This document shows, piece after piece, positions 2,468 to 63,678 of a DNA stretch of 64,000 nt. The DNA is from Agaricicola taiwanensis. Lineage in GTDB: Bacteria; Pseudomonadota; Alphaproteobacteria; Rhizobiales; Methylopilaceae. Numbering within the stretch: the stretch's first letter is position 1; each line of letters opens with the position of its first letter. The notes under the pieces are model-generated. The model made no database searches. It saw only the letters and a list, made by a program, of their open reading frames with translations, and was not told where the DNA came from. The stretch lies in assembly GCF_014635245.1 (NCBI RefSeq), contig NZ_BMCP01000001.1, positions 868,001 to 932,000 of the forward strand, in the 5' to 3' direction. Made by a program: the position numbers and the translations under genes.

Positions 2468-3309
2468 CACTTGATCGACGTGTGACACCGGCCCGGCCCG
2501 ATCTTGCCGCAGCGCATCTGCAAGGCGAGGTCACGGCGGCCCGCTATGTCGAGGGCAGAAACCAGCGGGTCGCGGTAGGGGCCGCTCCTTTGCGCGGAGA
2601 ACCGAGACCCGATGCTTCTCTCTTCACCGAGGCCCTCTTCGGTGAGACCTTCACGGTCTACGACGAGCATGAGGGCTGGGCCTGGGGACAGCTTGCCACC
2701 GACGACTATGTCGGCTGGTTGCCGCTTGCCGCGCTCACCGCGTCAGGAGCGGCGGCAACCCATCGGGTCGCGGCCCTCCGTTCGTTCGTTTTTCCGGGGC
2801 CGAGCATCAAGCTGCCTCCCGAGGATTTGCTGCCCTTCAATGCGCGCCTCACCGTGGTGCGGGAGGAGGGGCCATTCGCGATCCTCGATTCCGGCGGGTT
2901 CGTGCATAAGGCGCATCTGGCGCCGATCGACCGACGCGAGAGTGATATGGTCGCGGTCGCCGAACGTTTCCTCGGCACGCCTTATCTGTGGGGCGGTCGC
3001 ACCAGCGTCGGTCTCGACTGTTCGGCGCTTGTCCAGATGGCGCTGGACGCCTGCGGCCAGGCAGCTCCTCGCGACAGCGACATGCAGTTCGCCTCTCTCG
3101 GCCATGCCGTCGACATAAATCCAGCCGCGCTCCAGCGGGGCGATCTCGTGTTTTGGAAGGGTCATGTCGCCATCGCCCGTGGGGATGGCAACTTCCTTCA
3201 CGCCAATGGTTTCGCCATGGCCGTCACCATAGAAAATGTCGAGGCGACGATCGCCAGAATTGTCGCGGCGGGTGAGGGTGAAGTCCTGGGCGTTCGCCGG
3301 CTCGATTAG
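2464..3309 (+). CDS. NlpC/P60 family cell-wall hydrolase with SH3 domains
   Basis: 281 residues. The C-terminal papain-like NlpC/P60 domain shows the catalytic Cys in GLDCSALVQMAL (about residue 185) and the His in WKGHVAIARG (about 234), preceded by the typical FLGTPYLWGG. The N-terminal 150 residues resemble two bacterial SH3-type segments, as in DipM/YkfC-like endopeptidases that cut between D-Glu and diaminopimelate in peptidoglycan stem peptides. No signal peptide is evident from the chosen ATG, so it may act on cytosolic muropeptides or be exported non-classically. It starts inside the stop of the MarR gene (ATGA overlap). Confidence 0.88.
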   Translation: MTLDRRVTPARPDLAAAHLQGEVTAARYVEGRNQRVAVGAAPLRGEPRPDASLFTEALFGETFTVYDEHEGWAWGQLATDDYVGWLPLAALTASGAAATHRVAALRSFVFPGPSIKLPPEDLLPFNARLTVVREEGPFAILDSGGFVHKAHLAPIDRRESDMVAVAERFLGTPYLWGGRTSVGLDCSALVQMALDACGQAAPRDSDMQFASLGHAVDINPAALQRGDLVFWKGHVAIARGDGNFLHANGFAMAVTIENVEATIARIVAAGEGEVLGVRRLD

Positions 3310-35371: not shown

Positions 35372-35408
35372 TCAGCGAATCGCGGTGCGCTTTTTTGGAT
35401 GTGCGCGG

Positions 35409-35514
35409 TGTCCGTCCCTTCGCCGGTATGACCCGGATCAGGTTCTAAGGGTCACCGCGGCGTCCTGATGGACCGTCGGTATCTCAGCCCCTTCACGGGG
35501 CCCCCCTCGGAATA
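35409..35514 (-). promoter_or_regulatory. TPP riboswitch (THI element) of thiC
   Basis: Read on the minus strand it contains the conserved pyrimidine-sensor GGGGCTGAGATACCG and the pyrophosphate-sensor ACCCTTAGAACCTGATC followed by CGGGTCATACCGGCGAAGGGA elements of the thi-box. It lies 77 bases upstream of the thiC ATG. TPP binding would repress thiC. Confidence 0.95.
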
Positions 35515-35545
35515 GCGGGAAGCATCCGCCCCTTGGGCGACGCTG

Positions 35546-44037: not shown

Positions 44038-44114
44038 GCGCCCGTAGCTCAGCTGGATAGAGCACCAGACTACGAATCTGGGGGTCAGAGGTTCGAATCC
44101 TTTCGGGCGCGCCA
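44038..44114 (+). tRNA. tRNA-Arg (anticodon ACG)
   Basis: 77-nt cloverleaf with encoded CCA. Acceptor GCGCCCG pairs with CGGGCGC, D arm GCTCAGCTGGATAGAGC, anticodon stem CCAGA/TCTGG around CTACGAA (ACG), and T loop TTCGAAT. It marks the left border of the accessory region: the adjacent serine recombinase ends inside its 3' half on the opposite strand. Confidence 0.97.
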
Positions 44115-45740
44115 CTTACGAACAAAACTGGGCACTCCTGCCGGAGTAGCCCCTCCACCCATCACAAGCCGCTCCAGAACGTCGCGCCGTCCGTGGATGC
44201 GGATTTCCGTGTCATCGACTTCGACCTGATCGATGACGGAGCGCAGGTAGGCGCGGCGGAACGGGATGGCACCGTTCGCCACGTTCTCGCGCATCAAGGC
44301 GGCGAAGGCGTTGATTTTATCTTCGGTGATGCGAGTATCTGGCTGGAGTTCGGCGAAAACGCGGTCTTTGGCTACCCGAGCCTGATCGCGTTCGCCTTTC
44401 AGAGCTGCCAACCGGTCCTTGAGCGTTGGATCAGATGCGTCGGCGATGCCGTTTTCAATTGCCAGATACAGCCGCGATAGGCGGTTCTCGCAGTCGGCAA
44501 CCTTGTTCTGTAGAGCCGTGAGACGTTGCGCATGGTCTTCGCTGCGCGAGGCCTGCCGGGACAGCAGCCCGCCGAGGAGAGCCCGCACTCTTTCCGGAGT
44601 GAACAGGGAGGCGTTGAGCTGGTCCGTGACCAGTTTGTCGAGCTTGTCCATCGGGACGGACCGTCCCGGGCAGGCAGACTTTCCCTGCTGGGCGCAGGTG
44701 GCGCAGGTGTAGTAGCGATAGCGCCCGGACTTGCCCGTCCGCAGCGTCATGCCGCCCCCACAGCTGGCGCAGGTCGCAAGGCCAGTCAAGAGGATCGGGC
44801 CGGTGACGACGCGAGGCGGCGTCTGTTTGGGATTGCGGGACTTTAGCCGGGCCTGAACGGCGTCGAACAAGGCGGGGTCGATGATAGGGGCGACCGCGAC
44901 CATGACCTGGTCGGCCATGGGCTTATCTTCCTTCGTCTTCCAGACTTTGCGGTTGAACCGATACTCGCCCTTGTAAGTGGGGCTGGTGAGAAGGCTGTGC
45001 AGCGGGCCGATACCCCAGCGCGCGCCGCGCCGCGTGCGGTAGCCGCGCTCATTGAGGTAGGAGACAAGGGCCTTCACGCCGAGGGGGCCGCTCGTGCCAT
45101 TGCCTTCATGGGCCAGTTTGAACATGAGCCGCACCACTTCCGCCTCCACGGCATCGATGGCGAGGCGTTTCTTGGTCTTTGCTCCCCGCTGCTCCGCAGC
45201 CACGATGGCATAGCCGTACGGGGCGACAGCGCCATTCCAGAAGCCTTGACGGGCATTCTCTTGCATGGCGCGGAGAACATGCTTTGCGTTCTCTTTTGAC
45301 TGGTATTCATCGAACAGAGCGAAGACCTGCCGGACCATGACGCTCATGGGGTCATCGCCAAGGTCCTGGGTGATGCTGACCAATTTGACGCCGTGCTTGC
45401 GCAGGCGGCGCACATTGTATTCGAGCGCGAAATGGTCGCGGGCAAAACGGCTGAAGGAATGGACGATGACGACGTCGAAAGGGGAGTCCCCGCCCGCCGC
45501 AAGTTCCAGAAGACGCTGAAGTTCGGGGCGCCGGTCGTCGGTGCCGCTCAGTCCCGCGTCAACGAACTCGATAACGACCTGCCAGCCGCGTGCCTTACAG
45601 AAGTCCTGTGCCTGACGGCGCTGGTCAGGAATGGAGAGATCGTTCTCGGCCTGCCGGCCGGTGGAAACTCGCAAGTAGAGGGCAGCACGCACGGTTGCCG
45701 CGTCTTTCTCCTCCAGGTTCGTCCGGTTGAGCAACTTCAT
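44085..45740 (-). CDS. large serine recombinase (integrase) ending inside tRNA-Arg
   Basis: 551 residues. An N-terminal resolvase domain with the nucleophile in ALYLRVSTGRQAEND (Ser about 26) and SFSRFARD, then a recombinase domain (about 165-270), a zinc ribbon (CASCGG and YTCATCAQQG, about 333-362), a coiled coil (about 395-470) and a C-terminal basic region. Full length for the phage-type family. It catalyses site-specific integration and excision with few host factors. The last residues, RARKDSNL, and the stop codon are encoded by the complement of the tRNA-Arg 3' half. The gene upstream overlaps its ATG by four bases. Confidence 0.93.
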   Translation of the reverse strand: MKLLNRTNLEEKDAATVRAALYLRVSTGRQAENDLSIPDQRRQAQDFCKARGWQVVIEFVDAGLSGTDDRRPELQRLLELAAGGDSPFDVVIVHSFSRFARDHFALEYNVRRLRKHGVKLVSITQDLGDDPMSVMVRQVFALFDEYQSKENAKHVLRAMQENARQGFWNGAVAPYGYAIVAAEQRGAKTKKRLAIDAVEAEVVRLMFKLAHEGNGTSGPLGVKALVSYLNERGYRTRRGARWGIGPLHSLLTSPTYKGEYRFNRKVWKTKEDKPMADQVMVAVAPIIDPALFDAVQARLKSRNPKQTPPRVVTGPILLTGLATCASCGGGMTLRTGKSGRYRYYTCATCAQQGKSACPGRSVPMDKLDKLVTDQLNASLFTPERVRALLGGLLSRQASRSEDHAQRLTALQNKVADCENRLSRLYLAIENGIADASDPTLKDRLAALKGERDQARVAKDRVFAELQPDTRITEDKINAFAALMRENVANGAIPFRRAYLRSVIDQVEVDDTEIRIHGRRDVLERLVMGGGATPAGVPSFVRKWRARKDSNL

Positions 45741-47574: not shown

Positions 47575-48756
47575 ATGGCAGATATAAGGAAACGCACGGG
47601 CAGTAACGGCACGAACTACCAGGTCCGGTATCCCAGCAAAAATACAAAGAGCGGCTACGCGTATGCCACCTTCGACACGTTGAAGGAGGCGCGCGCCTTT
47701 ACCGAGAATCTCGGGGGCCTGAAGCATATAGCCGGCGGACGGAAGGTCACCGTGCCAGAGGCGGTGCAAATCTGGCTCGACACCTGCGAGAAGATTGGGC
47801 GCGATGGACGGGAGAAGGTGGAAACCACCACCCACGTGGAGTACCAGCGCCGGGGTTCTATTATGAAGGCGTATGCATGGGAAAAGCACCTGCACGAGCT
47901 TGAGGCTTCCGATGTCGTGCATTTTCGAAACTGGCTTCTTCAGCATAAGAGCCGTGATCTGGCTCGCCGCACACTTTCCTCCTTCCATTCGGTTATTATC
48001 GAGATGAGGCTGCAGGGCCTTATCAAGGACGATCCTGCCGCCGGCATCACCATCCGCGCCGACGGACGATATGAAGAGGATGACAGGGAAGTCCGTATCC
48101 CGACAGATGAAGAGGTTCGGGCGCTCCTGAAGGCGGCAGATGCCATGGGTGAAGGGTCCGAACAGCTGGCGAAAGCTTGGCGTCGCTATCGCCCGATGAT
48201 CTACCTCGCCGTGTTTTCCGGTATGCGCCCGTCCGAGTATCGCGGCCTCGCATGGAGCAACATTGCCATGGACCGCGTGCACGTCCGGCAACGCGCAGAC
48301 CGCCTCAACCAGATCGGGCCGGTCAAGTCGCGCGCCGGCCGGCGCACTATCTATCTTCCCGAAGCCGTCGGGAGGATGGTCATGGACTGGCGCCAGCATT
48401 GCCCCGCGTCAACGCTGGGCCTCGTGTTCCCCACTGCGCATGGCAAGCCGATGGCGCTCAACAATTTTGCACGGCGCTGCTGGGAGCCCCTGATGAAGGC
48501 GGCGCAACTGATGGAGCTCGACCCAGATGGGGAAGGTGGAGCCATGCGGCCTCGTTTCACGCCGTATGGCTTAAGGCACTATTTCGCTTCCAAGCTGATT
48601 GCCAAGGGCGAGGACTTGAAGTTCATCCAGACCAGCATGGGTCATGCCGACATTCAGATCACCCTGAACGTCTACGGACATCTGCTGAAGGATAAAGAAG
48701 CCAGGCATCAGCGGACGGCCGAAGAATTCGCCGCCGAGTTGATGGCGGCCGAGTAG
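47575..48756 (+). CDS. tyrosine-type site-specific integrase
   Basis: 393 residues. N-terminal arm-binding domain (MADIRKRTGSNGTNYQVRYP), SAM-like core-binding domain (about 75-160) and the catalytic domain: Arg in FSGMRPSEYRGLAW (about 222), box II YGLRHYFAS with Arg, a second His region GHADIQ and the nucleophile Tyr in NVYGHLL (about 373). The first His of the common HxLR box is Tyr (YGLR), a tolerated substitution in some families. It is preceded by AT-rich, promoter-like DNA and followed at once by arm-type repeats and a tRNA-Gly 3' half, its probable attachment site. Confidence 0.93.
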   Translation: MADIRKRTGSNGTNYQVRYPSKNTKSGYAYATFDTLKEARAFTENLGGLKHIAGGRKVTVPEAVQIWLDTCEKIGRDGREKVETTTHVEYQRRGSIMKAYAWEKHLHELEASDVVHFRNWLLQHKSRDLARRTLSSFHSVIIEMRLQGLIKDDPAAGITIRADGRYEEDDREVRIPTDEEVRALLKAADAMGEGSEQLAKAWRRYRPMIYLAVFSGMRPSEYRGLAWSNIAMDRVHVRQRADRLNQIGPVKSRAGRRTIYLPEAVGRMVMDWRQHCPASTLGLVFPTAHGKPMALNNFARRCWEPLMKAAQLMELDPDGEGGAMRPRFTPYGLRHYFASKLIAKGEDLKFIQTSMGHADIQITLNVYGHLLKDKEARHQRTAEEFAAELMAAE

Positions 48757-53770: not shown

Positions 53771-54152
53771 GCCAATCCAACCAAATGAACGCGAACGGCA
53801 GCGGCTGCATGCGGCATTCCTCGAAGCGGTTAATATCGGCGACATAGCCGCTGTCCGCCAAGCGCTCGGCAACGGCGCAATTGACATCAACTACGCCGAA
53901 CCCGGGACCGGACTTACGGCCTTGCACATTGCGGCGGGACGCAACGCTGTTGCTGTCCTGCGCCTTCTTATTGGGACCGGAAGCTGCGACCTTCGCGTCA
54001 AGGATGCTCAAGGGCGGACGGCGGCGGCGATCGCCGTCACCGTTGCACGCAATCCCGTCGTCGGGCGCTATCTCGCCGACCTGCAGCATGGGACCGGGAT
54101 AGCAGCAGCCCCGCAACGACGCCGGCCGGGCGAGCAGACCGACTTAGGGTGA
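53760..54152 (+). CDS. ankyrin-repeat protein, second gene of the unit
   Basis: 130 residues from ATG 53760, which overlaps the preceding stop by 11 bases. Two to three ankyrin repeats: AFLEAVNIGDIAAVRQALGN, then TGLTALHIAAGRNAVAVLRL and DAQGRTAAAIAVTVARNPVV. Ankyrin proteins mediate protein-protein contacts. Co-translation suggests it binds the upstream protein, as an antitoxin, inhibitor or scaffold might. This is an inference. The 3' end overlaps the convergent coupling-protein gene by nine bases. Confidence 0.7.
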   Translation: MPSEPIQPNERERQRLHAAFLEAVNIGDIAAVRQALGNGAIDINYAEPGTGLTALHIAAGRNAVAVLRLLIGTGSCDLRVKDAQGRTAAAIAVTVARNPVVGRYLADLQHGTGIAAAPQRRRPGEQTDLG

Positions 54153-55676
54153 TGCGTACTTTCCGGCGAAAGCCCCGTGAACCGGGCTGCTTTGGTCGAA
54201 ATACTCCACCCGCTGCAGCATCAGCGGATTGTAGCCTGCCCATAACACCAGTTGGCGCTTCAGCCGGTCATCGCGCGAGAACTGGCGGCTGACTTCATCC
54301 GGCGTGAGCAGGTCATATTGCTCCAGCGACTCTGACCGGCCCGTGATGCCGGACGCTCTCTGATCGGTCGCAGCATCGCCCTCGCGCATGACCTTCACCA
54401 CGGTTTTGCCGAGGCGCTTGGAAATGTACTCGGTCGTCAGCAGGTCATTGTTACCGAAGAACTGCAGGATACCGGCATTGCCCGCAAACGTTTCCCAGCG
54501 CTCTTTGTAAAGCGCCTTGCCCTGACCCCAGTCCTGCAGGATCACCCAGAGCTTCACCCCGAAGGATGCGATCTGACCGGCCGCATCCTCAAGCTGTTTC
54601 ATATGCCCCAGGACAGGGAATTCATCGAGACAAGCGAGGACCGGGACGGCAGGCTTTGCCTTCTCCCGCTCCATCGCATCGAGCAGCAGGTTGATGAACA
54701 GGCGCAGCCACCTGTTGCACTGTCTCATGCGGTTAGCCGGTAAACACAGATAGATGGTCATGCCGCGCGGCGCCGTTTTCAACTCCCGCAGGTCAAAGTC
54801 GTGACCCTCAAGAACGCGGGCCATCGCACCGTAATCCAGTAGCTGCGCATGACGCCGCGCATTTGATAGAACATTGCCGCGTTCGTTCGCAGGCTTCTCG
54901 TAGAAACCGCGCGCGGCTTTCTCGATAGCCTTTCCGACATAGGCTGTGGGGGCGCTGCGCTTAAGCCGTGTTGCGTTCGTCAGCATGGCCAGTTCAAGGG
55001 CGTAAGCATCGCCTTCATCATCGGCCGGGACCAGCACCTCTCCCAGGAGGTCGCCCAGCGTTATGAGATGGCGGTGGCCTTCAAAATGAGGATCAGTGGC
55101 AATGTGCAGCAGCAGTCCTTCGATCAGGTTCTGCGCGCTTTCATCCCAATGCGGGTCCTTTCCGGCGCCAATCACCAACGCATCGGAAATCAGGCGCGTG
55201 TCCTCGATCATCGTGTCACTAGCGGTGTCGAGCAAAGTCAGGGGATTGTAGCGCACGCGGTAGGGCTTGAGGCGCTCGGGAGTAATGTTGAACGGGTCAA
55301 GGACGCAGACCTTCTGGTCTAGCGCCGCACGCCGCTCCGCCGTAATCGCCGCGAGTTCGCCCTTGGGATCAAGGGCAAGCACGCTCCCCCGATAGAACAG
55401 GAGGTTGCTGACGAGCGTGACCGATTTGCCGGTGCGCGACCCCGCCACCGTCATGACGTGGCGATTGTCATCAATGCCGATGAGGCGGTCCCCCAGCGCC
55501 CCGACAAGAATTTTGCGCCCGGGATTCGCGGTATCATACGCGAGGGGACGGCTGCTTCGGATATTCTCCAGCGGCTCCCAGCGCGATTGAGGTACAGCCT
55601 GCTGATCAAGGAAGCGGGTCGTTACGCCCCGCGCAACATCGCTCATAAACTCTTTGCTGAAGGCGCTCACGGCCAT
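54144..55676 (-). CDS. type IV coupling protein (TraG/VirD4-like) without membrane helices
   Basis: 510 residues. Walker A TVAGSRTGKSVTLV (about residue 80), Walker B VLACLDEFPVLGHM, and the RecA-like motor fold with DPKGELAAIT typical of VirD4 family ATPases. Ordinary VirD4 proteins (600-700 residues) begin with two membrane helices that dock at the secretion channel; this one starts directly with a soluble region and lacks them. It would couple the relaxosome to a type IV channel encoded elsewhere or by a helper. It starts 51 bases downstream of a tandem CGAGGA motif. Confidence 0.85.
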   Translation of the reverse strand: MAVSAFSKEFMSDVARGVTTRFLDQQAVPQSRWEPLENIRSSRPLAYDTANPGRKILVGALGDRLIGIDDNRHVMTVAGSRTGKSVTLVSNLLFYRGSVLALDPKGELAAITAERRAALDQKVCVLDPFNITPERLKPYRVRYNPLTLLDTASDTMIEDTRLISDALVIGAGKDPHWDESAQNLIEGLLLHIATDPHFEGHRHLITLGDLLGEVLVPADDEGDAYALELAMLTNATRLKRSAPTAYVGKAIEKAARGFYEKPANERGNVLSNARRHAQLLDYGAMARVLEGHDFDLRELKTAPRGMTIYLCLPANRMRQCNRWLRLFINLLLDAMEREKAKPAVPVLACLDEFPVLGHMKQLEDAAGQIASFGVKLWVILQDWGQGKALYKERWETFAGNAGILQFFGNNDLLTTEYISKRLGKTVVKVMREGDAATDQRASGITGRSESLEQYDLLTPDEVSRQFSRDDRLKRQLVLWAGYNPLMLQRVEYFDQSSPVHGAFAGKYASP

Positions 55677-57883: not shown

Positions 57884-58570
57884 TTACGCGCTGGCGACCA
57901 TCAGCGTCTGGTCGTCAGCGCACATCAGGCGGGCCTCATGCTTCGCCCACGCCTTCAGGTCACAGTCCGGGCAGCTATAGCGCACGCGCTTGCCGCTCTT
58001 CTGCACGATCTCTGGCTCGGCTGCGCCCTCGCCTTTTGTGGCGGGGCGTGCCGCTGGCGGTGCTTCCTTCCAGATGATGGTGAAGCCCTTACCCAGCAGC
58101 CTGTCAGCGGCCTCGTCGAAGGGCCCGCCCTCGACAATCACATGGCTGACGGACTCGCCCGTCTCCTTGCCGCCTTCGGCGCCGTTGTCGGTGGGCTGAA
58201 GGCCGACCTTTTTCATCTGGTCGGCCCATTCGCGGTTGTGGTAGCGCCCGCGTCCCGGCTCGCCCTTATGGTGCTGCCAGAGATGCACCATCTCGTGAAC
58301 TAGGGTCGCCAGAACCTCCTTGTACGGGCGATCCGTGAAGGTCGCCGGGTTCAGGGCGATCTCGTCGGCCATGCGGCCGTCCTCGTGCCTGAACCGCGCC
58401 CCGGCAAAGTACCCATAGGTCCCTTTGCGGCGCTGAAGGGTAATCAGCGCGTTCGGCAGCGTGCCGCCGAACAGCGCCTTGTTGAAATGATCATAAGCCT
58501 GCTGGAACCGGTCGTAGGTTTCCTTGGTGGGTTTGATCTGCAGCGTTGAGGGATCAAGAGCGGCATTCAC
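57884..58570 (-). CDS. SprT-like zinc metalloprotease
   Basis: 228 residues from a GTG at 58570 (AAAGGA nine bases before); an ATG at 58615 is an alternative. The SprT fold carries the zincin motif TLVHEMVHLWQHHKG (HExxH, about residue 90) and the third-ligand region RYHNREWADQM. A C-terminal zinc ribbon is formed by YSCPDCDLKAWAKHEA and LMCADD. Related eukaryotic Spartan proteins cleave DNA-protein crosslinks. On a mobile element it may free transferred DNA from bound proteins, but that is inference. A tandem CGAGGA motif lies 110 bases upstream. Confidence 0.8.
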   Translation of the reverse strand: MNAALDPSTLQIKPTKETYDRFQQAYDHFNKALFGGTLPNALITLQRRKGTYGYFAGARFRHEDGRMADEIALNPATFTDRPYKEVLATLVHEMVHLWQHHKGEPGRGRYHNREWADQMKKVGLQPTDNGAEGGKETGESVSHVIVEGGPFDEAADRLLGKGFTIIWKEAPPAARPATKGEGAAEPEIVQKSGKRVRYSCPDCDLKAWAKHEARLMCADDQTLMVASA

Positions 58571-58679
58571 AGTGGACCATCCTTTCCACCGGCTCTCTTC
58601 GTTTGGAATGCACATTACAAAGAGAATGAAGGTGCCGGTTGTTGATGGCTCTTTATGTAGACGGCATCGTCTTCCGCAT

Positions 58680-58696
58680 TCCTCGTGCTTTCCTCG
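58680..58696 (-). promoter_or_regulatory. tandem CGAGGA motif, copy 3
   Basis: On the minus strand CGAGGA occurs at 58691 and 58680, 11 bp apart, 110 bases upstream of the SprT-like start; the core AAACGAGGAAAGC matches copy 1. Confidence 0.5.
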
Positions 58697-58824
58697 TTTC
58701 TGCTGCAGTTGAAAATGCAATGGCAGAGCGGTCATTCTGTCATTATGCTGCGATGTACATCTCAAATTAGCCCCGCCTCATGGCATAATTATAGAGAGGG
58801 GCAAAGGCGCAGTAGGGAAGAGTA

Positions 58825-58857
58825 CAAGGTGTGCGCGGTACTACCGCGCTCACCTTG
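58825..58857 (+). other. candidate origin of transfer (oriT) inverted repeat
   Basis: CAAGGTG-T-GCGCGG-TACTA-CCGCGC-T-CACCTTG is a 13-bp, near-perfect inverted repeat with one T-T mismatch. It lies upstream of mobC and the relaxase gene, the usual place for an oriT with nic nearby. The nick position is not identifiable from the sequence alone. Confidence 0.5.
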
Positions 58858-58860
58858 CCG

Positions 58861-59275
58861 GGGGAACTCTCCGGTTCCCCGCGGACCCCCTCAGGGCATC
58901 CCTAAAGCCGATGAGTCCGTCCTTGTGACGGCCTATGCGGCAAGGGATGCGGTCAGCCGCCTGCGGGCATCGAGCCCGCGCGGCTGAAGGCAACGTTTCG
59001 GCGTTGCATCCCGACCAAGGGAGACTGCGCTCTCCCTGGACCCATCGCGCAAAGGGGCTGGCCGCGCCCCCTTGCAACCCACGGCCGGGGCTGTCGCGCC
59101 CCGGACCACGACCGGTGTGTCGGCACCGGCTTCGAGCAAAAGGGAGACTTCGGCTCTCCCTTTGCAAACCCATCGACCGGGGAATGGCGCTCCCCGGAAC
59201 CCTCGCAATTTGCGCGCGGGCGATGGCGGCGGCAGCGTCCCGATCACGGCTATGCGCGCGCGTGGAAAGCGCGCG
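58861..59275 (+). repeat. array of about ten consecutive hairpins
   Basis: Short stems with mostly 5-7-nt loops follow one another: 58861-58880, 58917-58931, 58954-58986, 58990-59007, 59018-59037, 59049-59075, 59085-59104, 59112-59129, 59136-59165, 59177-59197 and 59255-59275. Stem sequences differ but several units are followed by a GGACCC/GCAACCC/GGAACCC-like trailer. Examples: CCGGGGC-TGTCGC-GCCCCGG and CCGGTG-TGTCGG-CACCGG. Confidence 0.75.
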
Positions 59276-59309
59276 GATCGGGGCGGCATTGCGACGCTAT
59301 CGATGAGGC

Positions 59310-59636
59310 ATGACGGAGAAGAAACGCGAAGCCCCGATCTCTTACCGGCCCCCGTATGAACTGCGGGAGCAGTTCCGGGCGCGGGTCGCCGACTCGGGGC
59401 TCTCCGTCAATGCCTTCATCACCGCGGCCGTGTTCGGCGATACTGCGCCGAAGCTTGCCCGCCGGACGTCCGCGCCGCGCGCGGACGTGGCCCGCCTGCT
59501 GGCCGAGACCGCGCTCTTGAACGAGCGCCTGAAGGGTCTCGCGGGCGATGCCGATCCGGCGCTGCTGGCGGACGCCGCGCGCGATCTTCGTGAAATCCGT
59601 GCCGCCTGTTTGAAGGCGCTGGGGCGATCACCATGA
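59310..59636 (+). CDS. MobC-like plasmid mobilisation relaxosome protein
   Basis: 108 residues. The N-terminus (REAPISYRPPYELREQFRAR) and NAFITAAVFG suggest a ribbon-helix-helix DNA-binding domain; the C-terminal half is helical (LLAETALLNERLKGLAGD). Small RHH proteins at this position bind near oriT and assist the relaxase. It lies seven bases before the relaxase gene. Confidence 0.75.
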   Translation: MTEKKREAPISYRPPYELREQFRARVADSGLSVNAFITAAVFGDTAPKLARRTSAPRADVARLLAETALLNERLKGLAGDADPALLADAARDLREIRAACLKALGRSP

Positions 59637-59643
59637 GGCTCAC

Positions 59644-61413
59644 ATGATCCCCAAGGGGAGCCAGCGCGGCGGCGGCAAAGACCTCGCCACCCATCTGCTG
59701 AACGCCTTCGACAACGAGTATGTCGAGGTGGCCGAGGTCTCGGGCGCGATTGCGCCGGATTTGCACGGGGCCTTCGCCGAGTGGGAGGCCATCGCCACCG
59801 GTCTCACCAAGTGCCGCAACTATCTCTACAGCCTCTCGGTCAATCCGGACCTCGGGCAGGGTCAGCTGTCGCGGGCACAGTACATGGATTATGTCGACCG
59901 GGTGGAGAAGGCGCTTGGCCTCGAAGGCCAGCCGCGGGCCATCGTCTACCACATCAAGGACGGCCGGGAGCATTGCCATGTCGTCTGGTCGCGCATCGAC
60001 TACCAGACCGAAAAAGCCGTCCATCTCGCGTTCGACCGCGAGAAGCTGATGATGGTGACGCGGCAGTTCGCGCGCGAGCACGGGCTGGAACTGCCGGAGG
60101 GATATGGGCCATCGCGCTTTGACGAGCGGCGGCGGCAGACCTCGCTCTATGAGCGGGCGCAGGAGCGGGTCACCGGCATCAGCAAGCAAGAGCGCGCGGC
60201 GCAGGTCACGCAGGCCTGGGCGCAGAGTGATACCCCGAAGGCCTTTGTCCGGGCGCTCGAAGACCTCGGCTATATGCTGGCGACGGGCTACCGGCCTTAT
60301 GTGCTGGTCGACATCTATGGCGGGAAGAATGCGCTACCCAAGCTGATCGACGATCGCAGCGTGCGCACCAAGGATATCCGTGAATTCCTTGCCAAGGATT
60401 TTCCGCCGGAGTCGCTGCCCACCGTGGACGAGGCGAAGGCGCTGGTGGCGCAGCACCGCAAGGCGCGCGAGCAGTTCGCCAAAGCGCAGGAGGATAGAAA
60501 GCAGGATGAGGCGCTCGCGCGGGCGCAGGCGGCGCGGCGGGAGAAGGTAGAGGCCGAGCGCGCGGCGATGCTGGCGCGTCAGGAGCAGGAGCATGAGCGT
60601 GAGTCGCTCGCCCGGGAGCAGTTGGCGGCGCGGCAGGGGCTGCGGGCCTTGTATCTGGCGGAGGTGGCGCGGGTCAGGCAGCAGCGTGATGAGGCGCGGC
60701 CCACGGGGCTGGCTGCGTTCCTGGGGCGCGTGACTGGCGTGTCGGCGATCATTCACCGGGTGCAGCGCTACAAGGATGCGAAGAGGTATCTAGCGTTCCG
60801 GGAGACTAAGCAGGGGCTTGCGGCAGGGCAGAGAGATGAGGCCGCATCGCTGCAGCACCGGCACACGCTGCAGGCGCTTGATATGAACCGGGAGGTTAAG
60901 GCACTCGCAGCCGTCGAGGCGCGGGAGCGGAAGGCGCTGGCGGAATCCCGTTTGCGCGAGCGGCGGATCGTGAGCCGCGGCGAGAACGGGCATATGCCGG
61001 CGCTCGCGCCCGGCTTGAAGCCGCGCGGGCGCGGGGCGGCGGTGCGCCGTGCTAAAGACAGATATCGGGACCGGTCCGGGCGCGACGAACGGGTCAATCC
61101 GGAGCGGGTCATCCAGCAGCAAGAGCGTGCCGAAGAGCGCGTCATGCGCGCGCAGATCGCGCAGGAGGAACAGCGTCAGGCGCCGGAGATCGACCTGACG
61201 GACGCGCACCGGGAAGCACGGGAGCGGCAGCATCCCTGGAAGAAGGTCGATCTCGCGGAGGAATTTGCGAAAGCGGCGGCTGACGGGACGGGCGGCGAAG
61301 GCGGCGGGGATGATGGAGCGCCCGCGCCGCGGATATCGCGGGCGGAGCGACCGAGCGAGCGGGCGCGCACGAAGCGGCGGGGACGGGATGATGATTTTGA
61401 GCGGGAGCGGTAA
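59644..61413 (+). CDS. MobP-type relaxase/mobilisation nuclease
   Basis: 589 residues. N-terminal relaxase domain (to about 230): candidate nucleophile Tyr in NAFDNEYVEVAEVSG (about residue 27) and the metal-binding histidines in VYHIKDGREHCHVVWSRID (about residue 100-118), the 3H-type motif of MOBP relaxases. The remaining ~360 residues are a charged, Arg/Glu/Gln-rich coiled coil with a Gly-rich disordered end (ARTKRRGRDDDFERER). It nicks oriT and pilots the strand to the recipient. Downstream of mobC, with no visible T4SS genes, suggesting mobilisation by a helper. Confidence 0.9.
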   Translation: MIPKGSQRGGGKDLATHLLNAFDNEYVEVAEVSGAIAPDLHGAFAEWEAIATGLTKCRNYLYSLSVNPDLGQGQLSRAQYMDYVDRVEKALGLEGQPRAIVYHIKDGREHCHVVWSRIDYQTEKAVHLAFDREKLMMVTRQFAREHGLELPEGYGPSRFDERRRQTSLYERAQERVTGISKQERAAQVTQAWAQSDTPKAFVRALEDLGYMLATGYRPYVLVDIYGGKNALPKLIDDRSVRTKDIREFLAKDFPPESLPTVDEAKALVAQHRKAREQFAKAQEDRKQDEALARAQAARREKVEAERAAMLARQEQEHERESLAREQLAARQGLRALYLAEVARVRQQRDEARPTGLAAFLGRVTGVSAIIHRVQRYKDAKRYLAFRETKQGLAAGQRDEAASLQHRHTLQALDMNREVKALAAVEARERKALAESRLRERRIVSRGENGHMPALAPGLKPRGRGAAVRRAKDRYRDRSGRDERVNPERVIQQQERAEERVMRAQIAQEEQRQAPEIDLTDAHREARERQHPWKKVDLAEEFAKAAADGTGGEGGGDDGAPAPRISRAERPSERARTKRRGRDDDFERER

Positions 61414-62517: not shown

Positions 62518-63678
62518 CTAGGGCAGGAAGTCGAAACTGGCTGGGGGGTCGTTCTGCGCCAGACAGCGCGCGCGCAGCGATGCATCGGCGCCGGCATAAC
62601 CTGCCTTCAAAAGTAGACGCTGTTCGTCCTCGGAGAACGGGTTGAGCCGGGTCCGCATAGAAGCGGCCTCTGCGGCCTCTTCAGCGGAGATCAGCAAAGC
62701 GTCCGGCAGGGCATACATCGTGGACGCCGTATCGATGCTCCAATAAGCAACCTGCCGGTCTCCCCGATTGGCCATTCCGAACAGGATACGACGCCTTGAA
62801 TTCTCCGCTTGCTGCTGGATGAGAGCGAGAGTGCGAAACAACTGACCGATCCAGCGTCCGGTCGGACGGCCAACTTCGGGGATCGTGCGACCGGCATTGC
62901 TGACCAGAATGGTCCGGCACCGCTTCCAGACGCGTTCGAGCCCGAGATTATCGTAGACGCCGCCATCCGCAAGAACAGCGGTGGTGATGAACGGCTCCCG
63001 ATGCAGGTCGGCCCCGGCAGTGGACTTCACGGTTTCGCCGGACAGGTCGATGCGCACTGGTGACAGGATCGGAGGGAATGCCGAGGACGCCGCTACGACC
63101 CGCGCCAAGGGGATTGCCGGACGGTCTATCAATCCCACACGGTAATCAGCCGCGTAGCTTTTGGCGAACCGCCAGCCGCTGCCGGTTTGCAGGTTCGTCG
63201 CCATGAAGGTGAAGCGCGGGGTATCTGTGATGTCCTGTAAGCACGCACCGTGAAAGAGATGGCGATCGTAGGCGCGGACAAGGCTGTCAGCCGCGCTGCA
63301 CCCCGGTAGAAGGCCGTAGAGCACAGCCTTGATATCGATGCCTGCCCGCGCGAACCGCAGCAGGGGTGAAACGAACAGCTCGTCGAGATTGACCGCGCGG
63401 CCGTTAGTGTCAAAACGCAGTTGCGACCAGCGCAGGGCCAGAAGCCCGGCTGTGATCGAGCCGCCGGAGACGCTCGCAACCTCGGCCAAACGGGGGAGGA
63501 AACCGAGCTCGTTCATGCGGATGATTGCGCCGACATGATAGATCATGGCGCGGTAGCCGCCGCCTGAAAGGCAAAGGCCTATCGTGTCGTCGAGCTTGCG
63601 GGCCTGCAGGAAATCGCCCTCCGCAGCGTTTGCCGCAAAGAGGCTCTGAATGTCCTGCGCCGCGGCGTGATCATTCAT
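62518..63678 (-). CDS. patatin-like phospholipase (CapV-like effector candidate)
   Basis: 386 residues. It has the anion-hole loop GLCLSGGGYRAMIYH (about residue 34), nucleophile elbow SVSGGSI (Ser about 71) and the catalytic Asp in LADGGVYDN (about 238), the complete patatin Ser-Asp dyad. The start overlaps the stop of a JAB/MPN-peptidase gene by four bases. In CBASS systems, CapV-type patatins degrade membrane phospholipid on cyclic-nucleotide activation. A defence effector is thus likely but inferred, as no CD-NTase gene is visible before the window edge. Confidence 0.85.
   Translation of the reverse strand: MNDHAAAQDIQSLFAANAAEGDFLQARKLDDTIGLCLSGGGYRAMIYHVGAIIRMNELGFLPRLAEVASVSGGSITAGLLALRWSQLRFDTNGRAVNLDELFVSPLLRFARAGIDIKAVLYGLLPGCSAADSLVRAYDRHLFHGACLQDITDTPRFTFMATNLQTGSGWRFAKSYAADYRVGLIDRPAIPLARVVAASSAFPPILSPVRIDLSGETVKSTAGADLHREPFITTAVLADGGVYDNLGLERVWKRCRTILVSNAGRTIPEVGRPTGRWIGQLFRTLALIQQQAENSRRRILFGMANRGDRQVAYWSIDTASTMYALPDALLISAEEAAEAASMRTRLNPFSEDEQRLLLKAGYAGADASLRARCLAQNDPPASFDFLP

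Follow-up and report, generated by a model that had tools for sequence, protein, structure and literature searches.

The window, by which we mean the whole stretch of 64,000 nucleotides from Agaricicola taiwanensis that was analysed, contains a dense run of short hairpins placed between an SprT-like gene on the minus strand and a mobC-like gene on the plus strand. The hairpins follow one another almost end to end. The genes of the surrounding element that bear on this array are listed below.

44088..45740, minus strand: large serine recombinase, abutting tRNA-Arg (44038-44114)
54144..55676, minus strand: VirD4/TraG-type coupling protein of the element (PF02534)
57884..58612, minus strand: SprT-like metallopeptidase gene (PF10263), on the leading side of the predicted nick
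59310..59636, plus strand: mobC-like gene of 108 aa, with no Pfam match, named by its position and by annotated MobC in syntenic plasmids
59644..61413, plus strand: relaxase (PF03432, MobA/VirD2-like)

The large serine recombinase is the probable integrase and marks the probable left end of the element; a tyrosine integrase gene lies nearby at 47575-48756. The candidate attR, 40 kb to the right, has only 13 bp in common with the tRNA-Arg end, which leaves the element's right end unproven. A patatin-like phospholipase is found near an E2-ThiF-JAB fusion, a CBASS-like accessory set (window 62518-63678 and L237 176-2449), and no CD-NTase was identified among the proteins checked around these genes. 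To the right of the window (L237 4687-15767; G000:C1, about 936-947 kb) are the Hma defence genes HmaA, HmaB and HmaC, which probably belong to the same island as the array. A TPP riboswitch (Rfam RF00059) is located at 35398-35517 on the minus strand. An SprT-like (Spartan-family) gene is annotated at the same place in locus L038, and similar coding sequence is present there in the near relatives L002-L006. Spartan-type proteases act on DNA-protein crosslinks, which raises a possible role of the SprT-like protein on relaxase-DNA adducts.

Hairpins of the array

Thirteen stems of at least 6 Watson-Crick pairs were found at 58825-59278, where the initial annotation had counted about eleven hairpins, together with a larger composite fold at 58896-58950. 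Individual features, all assigned to the minus strand, are as follows; helix numbers refer to the alignment of homologues described below.

58825..58857, minus: H1, predicted oriT hairpin, with the inner inverted repeat GCGCGGTAGTACCGCGC and then ACACCTTG (from sequence and conservation)
between 58825 and 58824, minus: predicted nick of H1, CACACCTTG^TAC (from the MOBP nick consensus of PMC3772185)
58858..58884, minus: H2, second hairpin, conserved in both sequence and shape
58896..58950, minus: H3, composite stem GCATCCCT/AGGGATGC around CCGTC/GACGG (helix 4, with double changes in 4 of 7 pairs)
58953..58987, minus: H4, stem CAGCCGC/GCGGCTG with cap GCGGGC-ATCGA-GCCCGC (helices 5 and 6)
58990..59007, minus: H5, GCAACG-TTTCGG-CGTTGC (helix 7)
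59018..59037, minus: H6, AGGGAGA-CTGCGC-TCTCCCT (helix 8), the most stereotyped repeat hairpin
59049..59075, minus: H7, GCAAAGGGGC-TGGCCGC-GCCCCCTTGC
59085..59104, minus: H8, CCGGGGC-TGTCGC-GCCCCGG (helix 9)
59112..59129, minus: H9, CCGGTG-TGTCGG-CACCGG (helix 10)
59139..59163, minus: H10, AAAGGGAGA-CTTCGGC-TCTCCCTTT (helix 11)
59177..59197, minus: H11, CCGGGGA-ATGGCGC-TCCCCGG
59200..59220, minus: H12, weaker, at the far end of the array
59252..59278, minus: H13, GCGCGCGC hairpin close to mobC, in near relatives only

Folded as DNA, the segment 58825-59275 reaches -140.3 kcal/mol on the plus strand (z -6.4) and -143.4 kcal/mol on the minus strand (z -6.8). None of 100 dinucleotide shuffles was as good on either strand, and shuffled controls do not reach as many hairpins. 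Seventeen homologues of the array give z values from -3 to -12 on both strands.

The wider comparison rests on 88 related loci, nearly all from alphaproteobacterial IMEs and plasmids, plus the Acidithiobacillus plasmid pTF4.1; a Xanthomonas plasmid with a relaxase relative was left out. Across this set, most stems measure 6-7 bp, most loops 6 nt and most centre-to-centre spacings 25-39 nt, in agreement with the earlier description of stems that differ in sequence and repeat in size and spacing. Perfect hairpins beyond H1 number 0-1 in 29 of the 88 loci, many distant loci having few strong ones. Chaining of hairpins with a gap limit of 45 nt split the arrays after H2, and the limit was dropped.

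No match over the array was obtained with Rfam 15 at gathering score, and relaxed thresholds gave only weak, chance-like matches. A hammerhead-like reading of GATGAGTCC at 58910 was rejected, as no GAAA core was seen and Rfam gave no match, and so was a CsrB-type GGA-loop sponge, since GGA lies mostly in linkers and not in loops.

The predicted transfer origin and its linked relaxase

In 86 of the 88 loci the minus strand of H1 consists of an inner inverted repeat and, after it, an arm that resembles a nick site and is close to CACAYCTTG^Y. The end of the inner repeat, GCG..GTAnTAC..CGC, is 8 nt ahead of the predicted nick, and thus an inverted repeat stands directly 5' of that nick on the strand predicted to be cleaved. 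The CAYCTTG arm is exact in 77 of the 86 loci, and its partner arm is off the complement in 52. Published MOBP nicks follow (C/T)ATCCTG(C/T), with an inverted repeat immediately 5' (PMC3772185), a consensus from which the arm CAYCTTG^Y is one position off. We infer the position and strand of the nick from this consensus and from the asymmetric conservation of the two arms. H1 is almost certainly the oriT itself, with both the inverted repeat for the relaxase and the predicted nick on its minus strand. The minus strand would then be the T-strand, with the SprT-like side leading and the array forming the trailing end just 5' of the nick. A departure from this pattern is seen in L004 (Reyranella soli, 3237-3305), where the array is kept, the nick arm reads CACACCCCACG instead of CACACCTTG, and there is no clear nic.

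The MOBP oriTs of RP4, the VirD2 border and H. pylori tfs4 share with H1 the inverted repeat directly 5' of a (C/T)ATCCTG^(C/T)-like nick, a relaxase of the MobA/VirD2 nuclease family, and an oriT that adjoins mobC-relaxase, as it does in the window and in 10 further array-relaxase pairs of the 58 described below. H1 differs from them in that ATCTTG or ACCTTG replaces ATCCTG, in the pairing of its nick arm with the hairpin's far arm, and in the up to a dozen extra hairpins that come after it. About 13 stem-loops in series beside the predicted nick bear out the earlier remark that these are oriT-associated and too many for an oriT. A possible relative is pPDL2 of Sphingobium, the oriT of which has been likened to that of pLB1 (PMC3516476).

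All relatives of the relaxase at 60-88% identity have the array upstream of mobC. They come from Rhizobium, Mesorhizobium, Reyranella, a Rhizobiaceae bacterium, Sinorhizobium pSymB and two alphaproteobacterial MAGs. PLSDB assigns most of the plasmids with relatives to type MOBP, and one of them, S. meliloti pSymB, to type MOBQ. With a covariance model of the first two hairpins, matches were found in 46 of 347 genomes from the same order, and in 21 of 385 from the class. Arrays are also present on plasmids: Sphingopyxis pSREG01, Frigidibacter pcai42B, Bradyrhizobium pCC829_1, Tritonibacter p2 and pTF4.1. Searches of viral contigs with the exact H1 pattern, and of phage records, gave none. Judged by eye from the translations, several array-bearing elements also encode large serine recombinases, VirD4-like proteins, and cargo of the defence or toxin-antitoxin kind.

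H1 and H2 form a minimal core that is present even on Acidiphilium pACMV8, on pTF4.1 and on the Desulfosarcina plasmid Do28_2, which has the first hairpins of the array. Plasmid pACMV8 (L243, 1729 bp) is typed non-mobilizable and has H1 and H2 only; this pair is likely a copy of an oriT that is mobilised in trans. Given that there are only two or three hairpins on small plasmids such as pTF4.1 and pACMV8, the long form of the array may not be essential. In another genome (L160/L170; G433:C6 373051 and 374587), two copies of H1 and H2 lie in opposite orientation 1.5 kb apart, and no relaxase was detected there.

A relaxase was detected in 55 of 65 array-positive genomes, the window's own genome excluded (24, plus 28 of 38, plus 3); the ten without one are among the 38. 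Array and relaxase (PF03432) share a contig, at most 32 kb apart, in 58 pairs. The relaxase is adjacent and co-oriented in 11 of these (0.5-1.1 kb), to the right and opposed in 38, to the left and co-oriented in 9, and to the left and opposed in none; in 47 of the 58 it is 1.3-32 kb away. The array is thus an autonomous module that is often not beside mobC. Because it keeps to nic as the distance to relaxase and mobC varies, it belongs to the transfer origin and not to a mobC leader. The initial placement of the array between an oriT and mobC therefore stands as to its association with an oriT, but the first hairpin is itself the likely oriT, and adjacency to mobC is not general.

Conservation, one-sidedness and alternative explanations

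An alignment of ten homologues contains 78 local pairs, which are 93.5% paired. Double-sided changes were seen in 28 of the 78, compared to 9.9 in shuffles (none of 500 as high) and 5-11 when the partners were slid. Close relatives also gain or lose whole hairpins: L002 and L038 each have a different extra one, that of L038 preceding H11, and L006 has a different hairpin at the position of H11. These compensatory changes and whole-hairpin gains and losses indicate that shape and spacing are under selection, and not the letters of the stems.

The array is also one-sided. Taken over 86 loci, the frequency of perfect hairpins with 6 bp or more is 0.34-0.50 per 50 nt in the region 100-400 nt to the right of the nick, compared to 0.07-0.08 in shuffled sequence. 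Their density is several-fold over background for about 450 nt and near background beyond about 500 nt; on the leading side of the nick it is near background throughout. The initial annotation had offered small mobile palindromes as one origin of the hairpins. Neutral build-up of such palindromes, or a by-product of GC-rich composition, would fit the insertion or loss of whole hairpins between close relatives (L002, L038). However, stems kept by compensation, the shuffled controls and one fixed place beside nic over 86 loci make this explanation extremely improbable.

The linkers are more constrained than the stem letters. On the minus strand, TCGATGG was seen 32 times and GATGGGT 29 times across 83 non-redundant arrays, with 2.3 expected for each, and GGTGCAG was seen 34 times with 3.2 expected. 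The trailers that had been noted after several hairpins are thus real. Such linkers, conserved between variable stems and regularly spaced at 25-39 nt, are what would be expected if MobC, the C-terminal region of the relaxase or another protein of the element bound the hairpins (as ssDNA or extruded from supercoiled DNA) or the linkers, either building a large relaxosome or holding the 3' end of the T-strand for the closing cleavage. The constant place of the array beside nic, and the sequence of H2, kept even in Desulfosarcina, point the same way. We nevertheless regard a landing platform of this kind as doubtful, given that stem sequences vary, that whole hairpins come and go, and that nicking in MOBP plasmids such as RP4 takes far less DNA.

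Mismatches within the stems carry information on the folding strand. In a strand-neutral stem search, plus-strand A.C mismatches, which are G.T on the minus strand, outnumber G.T mismatches by 34:17 inside stems and by 44:25 at stem ends (p about 0.01 for each), and the ratio is about 1:1 in both flanks. This modest asymmetry agrees with folding of the minus strand and with the predicted nick. In the window-type alignment folded as plus-strand RNA, G.U is about as frequent as A.C, in a fold that favours plus-strand G.U by construction. As RNase P RNA gives a similar ratio, the wobble ratio cannot part ssDNA from RNA.

The same bias, with the strong folding as RNA, would suit a structured non-coding RNA, needed for mobilization in trans or as a leader. 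There is precedent in SGI1, which requires the sgm-sRNA encoded beside its oriT (PMC9299015). Both are structured non-coding segments beside an IME oriT, but sgm-sRNA is a transcript acting in trans, whereas the array is known from DNA alone and is likened to it by description. An RNA appears unlikely for several reasons: no Rfam family covers the array, the number of hairpins varies widely, and position is tied to nic and not to any gene. In addition, a scan for sigma-70-like promoter sites found none at 58600-59400, where alphaproteobacterial promoters may deviate from the consensus scanned, and no terminator-like site was found at the array in the same scan.

Single-stranded promoters, another of the roles proposed initially, are not favoured. 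Frpo and ssi elements are known (PMC11541004) and, like the array in its predicted form, are folded ssDNA near oriT; Frpo-like promoters could here drive mobC-relaxase or cargo genes from the incoming strand. A minus T-strand would template rightward transcription into mobC, and the genes that come after the array in L061, L062 and L066 are of methylase, HigBA-like and AbiEi-like types (named by eye from translations). However, the next gene on the array side is co-oriented in 45 of 75 loci (30 minus), a share no higher than that on the opposite side (51 of 73; 22 minus), and this near-indifference to gene orientation argues against a promoter for the next gene. Frpo and ssi promoters are promoter-like folds of the leading region with -35/-10 elements, whereas the array lies at the trailing end and the sigma-70-like scan found no -35/-10 pair in it. 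We therefore consider this role very unlikely.

Proposed action as single-stranded DNA

The module, as defined by its hairpins, their compensation, its one-sidedness and its linkage to relaxases, is well supported. It probably contributes to the function of the transfer origin while the DNA is in single-stranded form. Its fixed position trailing the nick, its indifference to the orientation of the next gene and the lack of promoter- or terminator-like sites make an ssDNA element the best reading of the array. Our favoured interpretation, held at just short of even confidence, is a cis-acting MOBP oriT module with a minus T-strand, in which the array folds as ssDNA and serves as a start site, sso-like or G4-type, for the complementary strand. 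We infer both the single-stranded action and the priming role.

In the favoured interpretation, the relaxase would nick H1 on the minus strand, and this strand would be transferred. The ~450 nt of hairpins directly 5' of the nick would be displaced, and would reach the recipient, after all the rest; H2 onward would fold as ssDNA and start complementary-strand synthesis. The trailing 3' position would let one primer copy the whole transferred strand, and the start zone would become active only once displacement is nearly complete, as in most rolling-circle plasmids.

This 3'-end position favours an sso-like or primase-type start zone, as do the upstream location of the sso in RCR plasmids and the precedence of structure over letters in sso. 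In most RCR plasmids the sso lies upstream of the dso and is exposed last, and it consists of stem-loops whose sequence is replaceable if the structure is kept (PMC4595007). The array likewise comprises several stem-loops on the predicted displaced strand, strand-specific and 5' of the predicted nick on the predicted T-strand, as with the pBAA1-type sso; it is likened to known sso by structure and position, not by sequence, and has about four times as many hairpins. In ICEBs1 the sso is on the other side of oriT, and an upstream sso has been argued to be a hazard for integrating elements (PMC4595007). The orientation of the array is thus opposite to that of ICEBs1 sso1, which it resembles in its several strand-specific stem-loops. 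The ICEBs1 arrangement counts against the favoured interpretation, as do the small plasmids that have just two or three hairpins, the many distant loci poor in strong hairpins, the modest size of the wobble asymmetry, and L004, whose array lacks a clear nick. For a known sso such as the one in pBAA1, about three stem-loops are needed, and priming by itself does not account for a dozen. G4-type and n'-pas single-strand initiation sites are clusters of short hairpins on ssDNA that direct priming; the array shares this clustering with them but is much longer, modular and located at an oriT. Priming and relaxosome sites, both named initially, were apt as candidate roles.

The components are of known kinds, a MOBP oriT and ssDNA hairpins, and the long modular array is absent from Rfam. 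No description of a long hairpin array was found in the literature searches, which covered an open-access library. We tentatively propose, as a possibility and no firmer than that, a new class of ssDNA element: modular hairpins, conserved in structure and variable in sequence, on the trailing side of a MOBP nick in alphaproteobacterial IMEs and plasmids, serving as a second-strand start zone or as a scaffold for an ssDNA-binding protein.

Beyond a few model systems, little is known about second-strand synthesis on the transferred strand of an IME or plasmid in the recipient, and the array provides a conserved, well-delimited candidate for its start. The array also marks candidate oriT copies where no relaxase was detected, as on pACMV8 and in the ten genomes, and can serve in practice as an oriT signature for a family of elements that carry defence genes.
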